From a virus: DNA of 22,947 nt. Shown here piece by piece: positions 6,482 to 10,005 of the stretch. The notes below the pieces were generated by a model that did no database searches, was not told the DNA's origin, and saw only the letters and a program-made list of their open reading frames with translations. Position 1 is the first letter of the stretch. Each line of letters begins with the position of its first letter. The stretch lies in IMG/VR virus record IMGVR_UViG_3300032311_000276, positions 1-22,947 of that record, one strand, 5' to 3'. The translations under genes were made by a program, and so were the position numbers.

Positions 6482-6657
6482 GCGTTTAACTTATTTAATC
6501 GCTCATTGATATCATTTAAGCTATCAGATAAGTATTGATTAATAAGTTGGTTAATAATAACTGCCTTGTGTCTTTTAAGTTGCTTTGATGCTTTATCTAA
6601 TAACTCTACACTCTCTGGTGTCAGTCTTACTAGAAATGGTTTTAATTCGCTACTCAT
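6478..6657 (-). CDS. Ribbon-helix-helix (CopG/Arc-like) DNA-binding protein
   Basis: This is a 59-residue protein. An N-terminal strand (KPFLVRLTPESVELLDKASK) is followed by a turn and a second helix (KRHKAVIINQLINQYL), the strand-helix-helix order of Arc/CopG repressors, in which the strands of a dimer insert into the major groove. A charged C-terminal helix follows. Both ends overlap neighbours as ATGA (the 87-residue gene upstream and rusA downstream). As the second gene after the promoter at 6924-6952, it could repress its own operon. The paired -35 boxes there form an inverted repeat suited to a dimeric repressor. The fold is well supported; the operator is speculation. Confidence 0.78.
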   Translation of the reverse strand: MSSELKPFLVRLTPESVELLDKASKQLKRHKAVIINQLINQYLSDSLNDINERLNKLNA

Positions 6658-6917
6658 ACGTTCTCCTTATACTTGGTTAATTGCTTGACTAGTTTCTTTT
6701 TATCTTTATCTTTTGCCTGTTGTTTAGCATTTCTTAAAAATACTGGCAAGATACAATCAATAGCTTTATATGCTTTTAGATTAGGGGGGTCATCACGCCA
6801 TTGAGGTGATTTGAATATTGCAGATCCTTTGTCGGTAATAACTTCTGCTTTGTATTCACATGGGCCAAACACTTTAAACATGTCTTGCATCCATTCCTTA
6901 GCAGAGTTATATTTCAT
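6654..6917 (-). CDS. Unknown protein, first gene of the minus-strand operon
   Basis: This is an 87-residue protein beginning MKYNSAKEWMQDMF and ending in a Lys-rich helix (KDKDKKKLVKQLTKYKENV). An upstream in-frame GTG at 6935 would add six residues. It lies inside the predicted promoter (between its -35 and -10 boxes), so a transcript from that promoter could not use it, and I choose the ATG at 6917. This ATG falls almost exactly at the expected transcription start, which suggests a leaderless message. The core (GPCEYKAEVITDKGSAIFKS) is beta-prone. No family is recognised. It overlaps the ribbon-helix-helix gene by ATGA. Confidence 0.65.
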   Translation of the reverse strand: MKYNSAKEWMQDMFKVFGPCEYKAEVITDKGSAIFKSPQWRDDPPNLKAYKAIDCILPVFLRNAKQQAKDKDKKKLVKQLTKYKENV

Positions 6918-6923
6918 ACGCTC

Positions 6924-6952
6924 AATATATATCACTAAGATATCTATGTCAA
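6924..6952 (-). promoter_or_regulatory. Sigma70-type promoter of the packaging/rusA operon
   Basis: On the minus strand, TTGACA (6952-6947) is followed after 17 bases by TATATT (6929-6924). This is a full-consensus -35 box with a five-of-six -10 box at ideal spacing. The predicted start is at about 6917, the same position as the ATG of the first gene. It drives the leftward operon and stands back-to-back with the plus-strand promoter at 6966-6994; the two -35 boxes are 13 bases apart. Confidence 0.7.
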
Positions 6953-6965
6953 TAGTATTTATAGA

Positions 6966-6994
6966 TTGACTTAAAATTATTTATCGCTTATATT
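6966..6994 (+). promoter_or_regulatory. Sigma70-type promoter reading into the structured noncoding region
   Basis: On the plus strand, TTGACT (6966-6971), a 17-base spacer and TATATT (6989-6994) form a near-consensus promoter with predicted start at about 7001. No open frame follows for more than 500 bases on this strand, and the next gene (7508-8140) is encoded on the other strand. The natural product is therefore a noncoding RNA. GTCAAT (6948-6953) and ATTGAC (6965-6970), which contain parts of both divergent -35 boxes, form an inverted repeat that one repressor could cover. Confidence 0.65.
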
Positions 6995-7000
6995 ACTCAT

Positions 7001-7425
7001 ACGGGGCCATTACCCAGCCCTCCTAAATGTAGTAGCTGACAGATAGGGATAAACGTGTTGAATCAGTGGATTCTCCTTAAGTGTTGTTCCCGGATGGGAT
7101 CAAACAACAGTATCGGGGATCTGACCACTGGGGATGTAGCGTAGTGCATTACATCTAGACTAGATAAACGAGAAGCTACAACCATATTTGGTTAGTAAGA
7201 TAATTTAAACAATACTGTTTATTATCGGGTTAGGTTCTATTGTCGCACGATCTTTAGGTTTTAAATCATTATGTATTACTAAATACAGTCAGTAGGAAAG
7301 GTTTGCTTTTGCCAAGACATACCATCTTTGAGATATCCTTTGTTATCAATTCCTTAATTTCTAGCGAAAAATTGTGTGAGATACCCCTCATAGAAGCGGA
7401 CGGGGTGGGGGGGAAAGGGTCGTCT
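7001..7425 (+). ncRNA. Candidate large structured RNA
   Basis: No protein frame fits this 0.5-kb stretch, but it folds in an ordered way. A closing helix joins the ends: ACCC 7012-7015 with GGGT 7417-7420, and CCCTCC 7018-7023 with GGGGGG 7408-7413. Inside are CAGTGG 7064-7069/CCACTG 7125-7130 enclosing ATTCTC 7070-7075/GGGGAT 7115-7120 and TGTTGTT 7082-7088/AACAACA 7103-7109; GATGTA 7133-7138/TACATC 7150-7155; AACCA/TGGTT 7180-7193; GATAAT 7199-7204/ATTATC 7221-7226 continued by AAAC/GTTT; ATTGT/ACGAT 7239-7251; TGTATT 7272-7277/AATACA 7282-7287; and ACCCC 7383-7387/GGGGT 7402-7406. Several pairs are G-T wobbles that would be A-C mismatches on the other strand, which favours the plus strand and matches the promoter at 6966-6994. 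The 3' end is not defined. No tRNA or known ribozyme motif is evident. Confidence 0.5.
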
Positions 7426-7494
7426 TTCTGATAACTCACTAGAGCCATGCATGTTTTAGAGCATTAATGAATTACTATTGATTCTTTTCTGACA

Positions 7495-7512
7495 GCTAAA
7501 CGAACATTTAGC
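7495..7512. other. Perfect hairpin across the stop codon of the winged-helix gene
   Basis: GCTAAA (7495-7500) and TTTAGC (7507-7512) pair perfectly around a six-base loop and include the stop codon at 7508-7510. No T-run follows on either strand, so it is not a standard terminator. It could protect an RNA 3' end or slow the polymerases converging here. Between it and the structured RNA (about 7426-7494) I see only a weak AT-rich hairpin ahead of CTTTTCTG near 7465-7488, a possible but poor plus-strand terminator. Confidence 0.3.
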
Positions 7513-8140
7513 CTATGTAATTGATCGCCTCTGATACGCTCAAGCCTGTTGATAGGCCATCAAGTATCTTAATTGGATCTGATCCAGCCTCGAGAGCCTT
7601 CTCAATCGCCAACATATCACCCTCACTCTTTAGATATTTAAAAATAGCTAGTATAGGATCATCACTCTGATTCACTGATTCAGAATCTCTATCGGGTTTC
7701 ACTTGATCCGATTCAATCTGATTCAATAGCATTGTATGCCTTTGGATCGTTAAGATGTCATTATTCGATAGATCATCATTCTTTAGATCATCATGCTTGA
7801 TCTTATCGTCATAAATGATTCGCCTTGTATTGCCTTTGAGGTTAGGAAAGTAATTACTAAACGATTGAATATAACCCAGCCTCTCGATCTTTTTTAAATG
7901 CTTTCCGATATTCTGTGGTGTGCATTTTAAGTCTTTAGCGATCGTCTTTAATGATACGAATGAATAGCCCGACTTATTACAATACCCAGCTAATGCACAT
8001 AAAGCCCGTAAATTCTCGCCTGTCACTCGCCTATCGATCACGGCCTTAATTGGTATCACCACAAAATGTCGCTGATCCTCATTCTTAATCTTTTTAAGTT
8101 TTATCGCCTCTGGGATCGTATAGCTTTTAGATATATTCAT
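7508..8140 (-). CDS. Winged-helix DNA-binding protein (putative regulator or replication initiator)
   Basis: This 210-residue protein has a helix-turn-helix region at about residues 30-95. AVIDRRVTGENLRALCALAG is followed by YSFVSLKTIAKDLKCTPQN and then IGKHLKKIERLGYIQS, the pattern of phage winged-helix domains of the type found in replication initiators and MarR-like regulators. The second half is acidic and low-complexity (NDDLSNNDIL, SDQVKPDRDSES), then ends with a helical domain. It is transcribed from its own promoter, whose predicted start coincides with the ATG (leaderless). It diverges from the 8241 operon with only 100 bases between them, a switch-like arrangement. GATC sites are unusually dense in the gene. 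Whether it regulates the divergent operon or starts replication cannot be told from sequence. Confidence 0.7.
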   Translation of the reverse strand: MNISKSYTIPEAIKLKKIKNEDQRHFVVIPIKAVIDRRVTGENLRALCALAGYCNKSGYSFVSLKTIAKDLKCTPQNIGKHLKKIERLGYIQSFSNYFPNLKGNTRRIIYDDKIKHDDLKNDDLSNNDILTIQRHTMLLNQIESDQVKPDRDSESVNQSDDPILAIFKYLKSEGDMLAIEKALEAGSDPIKILDGLSTGLSVSEAINYIG

Positions 8141-8147
8141 ACTCTAC

Positions 8148-8176
8148 ATTATAGCAAAATAATATATCTTTTTTAA
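8148..8176 (-). promoter_or_regulatory. Promoter of the winged-helix gene
   Basis: On the minus strand, a perfect TATAAT (8153-8148) is preceded by TG one base upstream (extended -10) and, 17 bases further, by TTAAAA (8176-8171) as a weak -35. The start would be at about 8141, next to the ATG at 8140, so the message should lack a leader. The arms ATTAT (8148-8152) and ATAAT (8159-8163) form a small inverted repeat over the -10 box, a possible autoregulatory site. Confidence 0.65.
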
Positions 8177-8182
8177 TATAGC

Positions 8183-8193
8183 TATGAGATAAT
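8183..8193 (+). promoter_or_regulatory. Extended -10 promoter of the rightward operon
   Basis: TATG (8183-8186), one base, then GATAAT (8188-8193) match the extended -10 consensus; the -35 region is poor. The start would be at about 8200, giving a 40-base leader before the ATG at 8241. The -10 box lies only 35 bases from the -10 of the divergent winged-helix promoter, so the two RNA polymerase footprints overlap and mutual exclusion is expected. TATAGC occurs twice in the region (8150-8155 and 8177-8182). Confidence 0.55.
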
Positions 8194-8240
8194 CAGATCG
8201 CCAATAAAGGCATTTTACAATCCAGAAAGGATATAAAACT

Positions 8241-8396
8241 ATGTATTATAACCCGTATGATCCAGCGTCATTCAAGCGTAAGCCTCTCGATCGTGACCAA
8301 TGGCATAAGCCCGAAACTTCATGGCTTGTCATTATCTCGATTCTTTTTATCATTGAAACGATCGCATTAATAGTATATATGGCCAACAATGTATGA
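8241..8396 (+). CDS. Small single-span membrane protein
   Basis: This 51-residue frame has a polar, basic N-terminus (MYYNPYDPASFKRKPLDRDQ) and one hydrophobic segment at about residues 29-47 (LVIISILFIIETIALIVYM). A GAAAGG ribosome site lies about ten bases upstream, and the stop overlaps the next start (ATGA). Positive charges before the span suggest the N-terminus stays in the cytoplasm. It is the first gene of the four-gene rightward unit and shares its codon style. The function is unknown; a membrane-directed host-takeover or superinfection-exclusion role is only a guess. Confidence 0.7.
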   Translation: MYYNPYDPASFKRKPLDRDQWHKPETSWLVIISILFIIETIALIVYMANNV

Positions 8397-8479
8397 AATA
8401 TGTTATGGGATTTATATATTTCTATTGTGGTGTGGCCGTCTATTTAATATGTCGGCTCATTCTCTCATTCTTTAAATAA
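8393..8479 (+). CDS. 28-residue membrane micropeptide
   Basis: This very short frame (MKYVMGFIYFYCGVAVYLIC, then RLILSFFK) is hydrophobic almost throughout and ends with basic residues, as expected for a single membrane span. It starts by ATGA overlap with the preceding membrane-protein gene, so it would be translated by reinitiation, and a 17-base gap separates it from the next gene. The overlap, composition and lack of spare sequence support it. No family can be named for so short a peptide. Confidence 0.55.
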   Translation: MKYVMGFIYFYCGVAVYLICRLILSFFK

Positions 8480-8496
8480 ACTCTGAAAGGGTATAT

Positions 8497-10005
8497 ATGG
8501 AATCAAGACTTTTAAAATTGAATAATCTCATACATGATCGATACGACATAGAGAGATTAATTCACAGCAATATAAGGCTTAATGTTGCACCTTATGAACA
8601 GAAATACACTAATAAATATAATAAACAAGTCATTAGAACGACTGGCCGACTAGTTTCACAATATATAAGTAAGATTAAAAGCAAGAAAATAGGCCTCGAC
8701 GGCGAGATTGAATATCTCAATACGATTAGATCTCAATTATCGAGTGAAGTAGCCTACAGAATTGAGCCTCGCCTCAAATATATTGAGGATCAATTCAAAC
8801 ATGGCCATTGGATCAAGATAGATTATGCCTCATATATAATAGGCCTCGAGGCTGTCTATTCTAATTTCTCGCAATATAACATATTGCACAATCTACACGA
8901 ATCCACGGCCGATCCCTTGCTAGTCGCATACTATCCCACAATCGATCACATGAGAAAAGGCCGAGAAGTAAGAACAAAGCTCGGAAAGTATCTCAAAACG
9001 TATCAAATAGAATTTGGATTATCTGATGCACAGATCAAAAGCATAGTAGAGAATCACAATACTTTAATCGAGGCTCGGGCTGGTTGGACTGTGAAATTTA
9101 TTGGCTCGAATGATCCTCAAGGCTGGTTTAATGTTTATGCAAACTGCACATATCGATCATGTATGAGCGATCGAAAAGGTGATGCTGACGAATGGATTAA
9201 ACAATATGCACACGATCGATCTGTTTTAAGACTTGCTTTCATTCAGTCGGGCGATAATATCGTGGCTCGTTGCATTGTAAGAGAGGATTTAAAGGAATGG
9301 ATTCGAGTATATCCCGAGCCTAACGGCTACACCGAGGGTAATTTCCTCAAGTCATATTTGCAAAATATGGGATATAAACACGGAACATTAATCGATACTT
9401 TAATCACTACGAGGCCTCATTCAGAGGGTGGCTATGTTGCACCTTATATCGATCGAGGCTCGAATGATAATTTTCCTCAAGGTGTAATCGAAAAGAATGG
9501 CGATCAATTATATATTCGGATTGTTGAGGACGGCGATTTTGATCTTACTTATACGAATGGACGCACAGAAGAGGAAGAGGAAGAGTATCACTGTGAATGT
9601 TGCGACGGCTATTTTAACGAGGACGACATGGACGGCGATATTTGCCTAGATTGTCTTGATGAATATACGTCGGCTCGTAGTTGTAACGGAACTGATGCAT
9701 GGATTAATAATAATGACGTGATCTGGGTTGGCGATTATGCTTATGATCCCGATTATCTCGAGGATAATAATATTTATTATGATGAGTATAACGGCGAGTA
9801 TTATCATTTAGATGATCTGGTTTCTACTTCTCGAGGCATGGTGCATCATCACGATTGTATATTATTAGATCACGAGGACTGCGAGGGAAATTCTCATGCC
9901 GTGAATGATGATTCTCACGAATTATCGGACGGCACAATTTGTCATACAGATGATGCCGAATCACTCGAGGCCGAATTACAGAAAAGCGAGGCCACAAGTG
10001 AATAA
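8497..10005 (+). CDS. Large phage protein of unknown function with zinc-binding cysteines and acidic C-terminus
   Basis: This 502-residue protein has an AAAGG ribosome site six bases before the ATG. The first 200 residues are helical and basic. The core, about 205-350, contains WFNVYANCTYRSCMSDRKGD, then LRLAFIQSGDNIVARCIVRE and GGYVAPYID. I recall this order of blocks (SCM, ARxxVR, Y(V/A)xPYID) in other uncharacterised phage proteins. A run of glutamates leads into a Cys cluster at about 366-385 (CECC, then CLDC), which could bind zinc. The last 130 residues are strongly acidic and Tyr-rich with further Cys and His. There is no recognised catalytic motif. It overlaps the peptidase gene by eight bases. 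An enzymatic core with a DNA-mimic-like tail is a hypothesis. Confidence 0.8.
   Translation: MESRLLKLNNLIHDRYDIERLIHSNIRLNVAPYEQKYTNKYNKQVIRTTGRLVSQYISKIKSKKIGLDGEIEYLNTIRSQLSSEVAYRIEPRLKYIEDQFKHGHWIKIDYASYIIGLEAVYSNFSQYNILHNLHESTADPLLVAYYPTIDHMRKGREVRTKLGKYLKTYQIEFGLSDAQIKSIVENHNTLIEARAGWTVKFIGSNDPQGWFNVYANCTYRSCMSDRKGDADEWIKQYAHDRSVLRLAFIQSGDNIVARCIVREDLKEWIRVYPEPNGYTEGNFLKSYLQNMGYKHGTLIDTLITTRPHSEGGYVAPYIDRGSNDNFPQGVIEKNGDQLYIRIVEDGDFDLTYTNGRTEEEEEEYHCECCDGYFNEDDMDGDICLDCLDEYTSARSCNGTDAWINNNDVIWVGDYAYDPDYLEDNNIYYDEYNGEYYHLDDLVSTSRGMVHHHDCILLDHEDCEGNSHAVNDDSHELSDGTICHTDDAESLEAELQKSEATSE

Follow-up and report, generated by a model that had tools for sequence, protein, structure and literature searches.

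A conserved sense-strand RNA domain of aquatic phages with two predicted long-range pseudoknots

The OOP RNA of phage lambda is a simple, short phage transcript (~77 nt) that lies near the replication initiator gene and runs against the neighbouring gene. ColE1 RNA II and the T4 origin R-loops involve structured or promoter-driven transcripts near the replication region, and riboswitch-like elements and other cis-acting mRNA leaders are 5′-terminal, compact, and pseudoknotted. GOLLD and ROOL are structured phage or prophage RNAs with pseudoknots and of unknown function (PMC12286853); many GOLLD members exceed 800 nt (PMC12286853) and have a universally conserved 3′ region, and both families, which assemble into homo-oligomeric cages, often occur near tRNA islands without strictly requiring them. 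The window analyzed here, a 22,947-nt stretch of viral DNA (IMG/VR record IMGVR_UViG_3300032311_000276), contains a gap flanked by minus-strand genes at 6654-6935 and 7508-8140, in which an earlier note had placed an RNA of ~0.5 kb (7001-7425) recalling GOLLD and ROOL. The RNA described below is likewise structured, pseudoknotted, and phage-borne, but its core is 170-310 nt long with a different fold, and the 22.9-kb window contains no tRNA according to ARAGORN. At the gathering threshold, no Rfam 15 family matched the window or any of 16 diverse homologues, and a relaxed threshold yielded nothing of note for the window, its single match being to an unrelated family and at chance level. With no Rfam match and too small a core, the likeness to GOLLD and ROOL was given up. 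Nothing naming such an RNA family was found in the open-access papers searched, and the parts of the paper on Methylophilales phage MEP301 reached by a term search do not mention non-coding or intergenic RNA. By the tests made, the RNA belongs to a family of phage RNAs unmatched to any described and is neither GOLLD nor ROOL.

The window is akin to MEP301, with which its large terminase is 84.5% identical. TerL-based retrieval provided ~40 loci with a homologous gap, and viral contigs were scanned with DNA patterns built from the motif conserved at the 5′ end and from the second AUAAAC motif (Table 1); after the removal of duplicates and chance matches, at least 165 sequences representing at least 122 distinct RNAs were obtained. 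The carriers are freshwater and marine phage contigs, the OM43 phage MEP301 included, and comprise phages with two large terminases from separate sequence clusters. When 10 phage records were searched over their full length, each contained a single copy. Of the annotated phages, two have the RNA, namely MEP301 (33432-33614) and the uncultured MW202825 (36-221), and no others do; neither record has an annotated feature over its 5′ match, and the predicted start of MEP301 gp54 falls within the 3′ end of its RNA core. Cellular genomes provided one real match, on a Nitrosomonadales MAG contig (L264, 78.9 bits). Other exact-motif matches of the bacterial genome scan had chance-level scores and were rejected, ~600 further related genomes gave no second cellular match under stricter filters that lose weak matches, and the plasmids searched gave none.

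Table 1. Positions in the window of the RNA, its predicted pairings, and adjacent features
Feature	Position	Strand	Remarks
Sigma-70-like promoter	6966..6994	+	-35 TTGACT 6966-6971; 17-nt spacer; -10 TATATT 6989-6994
Conserved RNA core	7001..7240	+	R1 model match 1-205, 167 bits
P1 hairpin	7004-7007 with 7017-7020 (7004..7020)	+	Loop includes ACCC of pseudoknot B
Pseudoknot B, 5′ strand ACCC	7012..7015	+	P1 loop
P2	7021-7024 with 7045-7048	+	99.4% of cells paired; two-sided changes at every pair
P3	7028-7030 with 7039-7041	+	94.9% of cells paired; two-sided changes at every pair
Pseudoknot A, 5′ strand GUAGCU	7032..7037	+	P3 loop
First AUAAAC motif	7049..7054	+	Invariant in A1
P4	7057-7059 with 7158-7160 (7057..7160)	+	Closes variable arm; 78.6% paired, two-sided changes
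P5, variable arm	7063-7069/7125-7131	+	Covaries, 87.8% paired
P6, variable arm	7072-7076/7115-7119	+	
P7, variable arm	7083-7091/7096-7108	+	Compensatory changes in close relatives, by inspection
P8a, variable arm	7133-7138/7150-7155	+	Compensatory changes in close relatives, by inspection
Second AUAAAC motif (AUAAACGAGA)	7164..7169	+	Invariant in A1
Pseudoknot A, 3′ strand AGCUAC	7174..7179	+	Segment past second AUAAAC motif
Hairpin past pseudoknot A	7180-7184/7189-7193	+	Variable; 52.9% paired, alignment register poor there
P9 hairpin	7199-7204/7221-7226	+	By inspection
Pseudoknot B, 3′ strand GGGU	7227..7230	+	3′ end of core
Variable tail containing a conserved block resembling GCGAAAAATTG and a G-run	7361..7420		Outside RNA core; in MEP301-type genomes
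Replication-initiation-like gene, convergent	7508..8140	-	Pfam HTH_36; PHROG replication initiation proteins

Mean identity of window-clade relatives to the window was 0.82-1.0 across blocks of 7001-7240 (0.98 at 7001-7060, 1.0 at 7164-7180, and 0.85-0.89 at 7181-7240) and fell past the core to 0.68 (7241-7300), 0.54 (7381-7425), and 0.31 (7426-7500). The extent of ~0.5 kb proposed previously was therefore too long: the conserved core stops near 7240, and the 3′ half of 7001-7425 lies outside the conserved structure. The core measures 240 nt in the window and mostly 170-260 nt among members (maximum, ~310), with both its 5′ and 3′ ends conserved across members and a sharp 5′ edge 7 nt past the conserved -10 box. 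Its length varies by 1-4 nt between close relatives, so it is non-coding. The description of ~0.5 kb free of genes and kept uncoded by selection was only half right: the gap holds no conserved gene, but past 7240 many relatives carry a small ORF, which is absent from the window lineage. In the sisters L006, L013, L117, and L234, an ORF for a 29-aa hydrophobic peptide (e.g., MILYITYKLLDTLVFGLYLIYIFIKGVSR) lies ~85 nt past the second AUAAAC motif, between the core and a 3′ block; marine relatives have a DUF1289 gene instead, and the peptide ORF is absent from the window. MEP301-type genomes conserve the 3′ block, which resembles GCGAAAAATTG and precedes a C/G-rich hairpin and a G-run that some relatives replace by a C-run; the block encodes the DUF1289 C-terminus where that ORF is present and is kept even after ORF loss. 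At 7361-7420 of the window, it might serve as a cos site, an origin, or a site of recombination.

Comparison of the homologues shows a predicted sense-strand RNA domain with two long-range pseudoknots, and the window gap almost certainly holds a real conserved RNA. Alignment A1 comprised 39 sequences, with P1, P2, P3, P4, P5, the 7180 hairpin, and pseudoknot B in its model. In A1, 88.3% of cells were paired (100% for both P1 and pseudoknot B), percentages that lean towards the structure because it was drawn by inspecting the same sequences. Double-change cells numbered 181 as opposed to 57 after shuffling, and the covariation score was 0.465 as opposed to 0.166 (shuffled) and at most 0.115 (slid), these counts being of sequences, which are non-independent events. 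Judged from the alignments, compensatory changes are clear in P1, P2, P3, and both pseudoknots, in agreement with the covariation that the earlier note had expected of homologues, and are less certain in P4 and the outer arms. All seven pairs of P2 and P3 changed on both sides in A1, and P1 changed from GC to CG at 4-20 in 3, from GC to AU at 5-19 in 12, and from GC to AU at 6-18 in 5 of the 122 RNAs among the matches listed. The two AUAAAC motifs flank P4, whose register shifts from clade to clade; permuting P4 as one contiguous helix in an initial test gave no significant result, and this stem rests on the A1 column counts. The variable arm spans 7063..7155, and the hairpins at 7180..7226 have U-rich loops in many homologues. 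Nine helices can be drawn in the window core, in line with the eight or more proposed previously, and many unpaired bases are invariant in A1. Over the 22 pairs counted, 54 G.U cells were found versus 3 A.C cells, which identifies the RNA as the plus strand, the direction that the earlier note had read from the G-T pairs. A stretch in the arm resembling the 3′ end of 16S rRNA, UUCUCCUUA, was set aside as not conserved across clades. Natural variants were also observed. Most of the variable arm is gone in L131 (7828-7981, minus strand, of a 37-kb contig; possibly an assembly error), in which P1-P3, both AUAAAC motifs, and the strands of the two pseudoknots are nevertheless retained and which still matches the model with 120.7 bits, and in L145, L195, L149, and L366 the hairpin past pseudoknot A is swapped for a much larger, structured-looking insertion of ~60-90 nt.

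Pseudoknot A was not in the model used for aligning and was read from the 3′ end of the P3 loop; 175 of its 210 cells were paired, compared with 110 ± 5 after shuffling. In the larger set, the matches listed gave a complementarity score of 795 versus 488 ± 17 when permuted, with at least five perfect complements in 52 of the 58 distinct pairs among them. For pseudoknot B, the 3′ strand was placed by a conserved sequence anchor in 118 RNAs among the matches listed (4 of 122 were not placeable), and A12-U257 was replaced by G-C in 8 and C15-G254 by U-A in 5, with 0 mismatches. The long-range helix proposed to close the whole region (7012-7023 with 7408-7420) is not conserved; 7012-7015 covaries instead with 7227-7230, and the G-run at 7408-7420 is a C-run in L099, L174, L200, and L069. 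An alternative from RNAalifold (columns 3-5/13-15 and 17-20/254-257) had zero double changes and was rejected, since P1 and pseudoknot B explain the double changes at 4-20, 5-19, 6-18, 12-257, and 15-254.

Folding energy gave a different picture. The single-sequence fold of 7001-7425 was no better than shuffled sequence on the plus strand (z, -0.77; 18 of 100 shuffles equally good), with a z of -0.61 on the minus strand, about -2.7 for the core alone (40 shuffles only), and a family mean of -0.64. The earlier note would have taken such a result as refutation; this would wrongly fail a real RNA, and the energy test was set aside because pseudoknots are unscored in minimum-energy folding. Single-sequence fold energy can thus miss genuine pseudoknotted RNA. 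The unremarkable folding of 7001-7425 would suit a non-functional AT-rich spacer with chance helices, but this explanation is contradicted by the strand asymmetry, the conserved promoter position, and the compensatory changes seen in the two pseudoknots as well as in P1, P2, and P3, and is extremely improbable.

The promoter of the window, taken alone, is at chance level (10 promoter-like sites at 6500-8600 versus 9.8 expected). Among homologues, a promoter matching at least 9/12 at the right distance was present in 21 of 41 non-redundant upstream regions versus 3.9% of shuffles, so that the claim of an own promoter was borne out, TTGACT-17-TATATT being present and its distance to the core fixed. 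The first RNA base predicted from these elements is 7001. By sequence, the window RNA has the predicted promoter of its own expected of a stand-alone small RNA, but a second group (L087, L127, L113, L147, L106, L196, and L171) does not: a long hairpin with a T-run 25-35 nt upstream takes its place, and the RNA is thus not always 5′-terminal. This hairpin lies ~120 nt upstream of the core, apparently interleaved, with the T-run 25-35 nt before ACGGGG, and has the look of an attenuator or of a further small RNA; at a relaxed threshold, Rfam matches to L171 and L113 were at chance level only. A divergent near-consensus promoter (TTGACA-17-TATATT, 11/12) was also observed on the minus strand at 6924-6952 of the window, back to back with that of the RNA; it points into the terminase-side operon.

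Our main reading, to which we assign a probability of roughly 0.5, is a 5′-terminal regulatory RNA of the early or replication module, the mechanism being inferred. A stand-alone early RNA that acts in trans by binding a protein, polymerase, ribosome, or RNA, with the adjacent ORFs as unrelated cargo, is a tentative alternative, although we regard it as nearly as likely as early/replication regulation. It accords with a core kept without a following ORF in several lineages (L137, L157, L106, and the window), with cargo that varies by lineage (a TM-like peptide, DUF1289, and others), and with convincing intrinsic terminators shortly past the core in L104, L175, and L200. However, terminator-like hairpins downstream are at chance level family-wide (5 observed versus 6 expected, with no excess), the fused initiator clade described below appears cis-acting, and the target or partner is hypothetical; no intrinsic terminator was found in the window. 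The window and its close relatives probably lost the peptide ORF in a single shared deletion, so that loss with an intact core is weak evidence of independence, evidence which other ORF-less lineages such as L137 and L157 strengthen.

Early/replication regulation accords with the surrounding genes. Of the 66 loci whose flanks were long enough, 45 have an initiator-like gene at most 2.2 kb away, mostly in the convergent orientation seen in the window; the other 21 have no initiator of the window's cluster nearby, which speaks against this role. About 16 distinct RNAs among the matches listed are fused to an initiator-like ORF (GGGUGAGGUUCUAUG or GGGUGAGGUUCUAUUCAAUG), directly upstream and on the same strand as expected of a leader. 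Here the RNA leads directly into the AUG of the initiator-like gene, which lies 12-18 nt past the start of the pseudoknot B strand, and the Shine-Dalgarno sequence abuts pseudoknot B. The fused protein contains HTH_36 and clusters with the initiator-like protein of the window; it has no PHROG match, and we infer its initiator role from this clustering. No leader arrangement is seen in the window or in 40 of the 122 RNAs among the matches listed, in which the 330 nt downstream contain no ORF of 50 aa starting with ATG, some of these 40 carrying the shorter 29-aa peptide. Other downstream neighbours of the core are a 29-aa membrane-like peptide, a DUF1289 protein, and other small ORFs.

In the proposed mechanism, P1 to P4 would fold first during transcription, and GGGU, made last, would close pseudoknot B. 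In the fused initiator clade (GGGUGAGGUUCUAUG), this closure may cover or abut the Shine-Dalgarno sequence and thereby gate initiator translation. In window-type phages, with no ORF directly after, the folded domain may act alone as a short RNA or, alternatively, through a transcript that converges on the initiator gene. That gating by pseudoknot B was the ancestral mechanism is doubtful, as it leaves the 40 of 122 ORF-less RNAs among the matches listed and the window unexplained, which counts against it. The broader scenario, in which a doubly pseudoknotted RNA class governs aquatic-phage replication, ancestrally by gating from the initiator leader and in window-type phages as a separate convergent transcript, is unlikely.

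The position of the window RNA is like that of lambda OOP, to which it is likened by description only, and differs in comprising a 240-nt doubly pseudoknotted domain. As with ColE1 RNA II and the T4 R-loops, a structured or promoter-driven transcript lies near the replication region with a G-run downstream in the window, and it could be an origin transcript or primer of that kind, running from 7001 towards the initiator with an origin near the G-run. The RNA adjoins the initiator gene at the place where the two gene modules diverge, the cumulative GC-skew minimum lies nearby, and the G-run follows the core in MEP301-type genomes. This role is quite unlikely, however, as the G-run becomes a C-run in several relatives and is absent outside MEP301-type genomes, GC skew is confounded by gene strand, and the origin is putative. 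Within the initiator gene, at 7594-7790 of the window, short direct repeats (e.g., TCACTCTGATTCA/TCAATCTGATTCA and TCACTCTTTAGAT/TCATTCTTTAGAT) were observed, which could be candidate iterons of an origin within the initiator gene, as in lambda O. I1, an inverted repeat linking the RNA to the initiator gene, was set aside, as the shared stretch differs in relatives.

The compact double-pseudoknot fold and the many invariant unpaired bases are features also of riboswitches and ribozymes, and the hairpin with a T-run before the core in the second group would suit a ligand-binding riboswitch or a catalytic RNA with a hypothetical ligand or reaction. The RNA shares with riboswitch-like and other cis-acting leaders its 5′-terminal position, compactness, and pseudoknots, and in one clade the fusion to a start codon with the Shine-Dalgarno sequence beside a pseudoknot strand. 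It differs from them in having no known ligand, in lacking a consistent gene downstream, and in that many members are followed by no ORF. Rfam yielded no match to a riboswitch or ribozyme, and the downstream genes have no common metabolic theme, making this a rather improbable explanation.

Few phage RNAs show a comparable density of covariation. The RNA is frequent among publicly available virome contigs from fresh and marine waters, is also present in a cultured pair, MEP301 and its OM43 methylotroph, and as a defined domain of 170-260 nt with predicted pairs, it is open to synthesis, probing, and mutation. Collectively, our findings point to RNA-level control within the early/replication module of aquatic phages.
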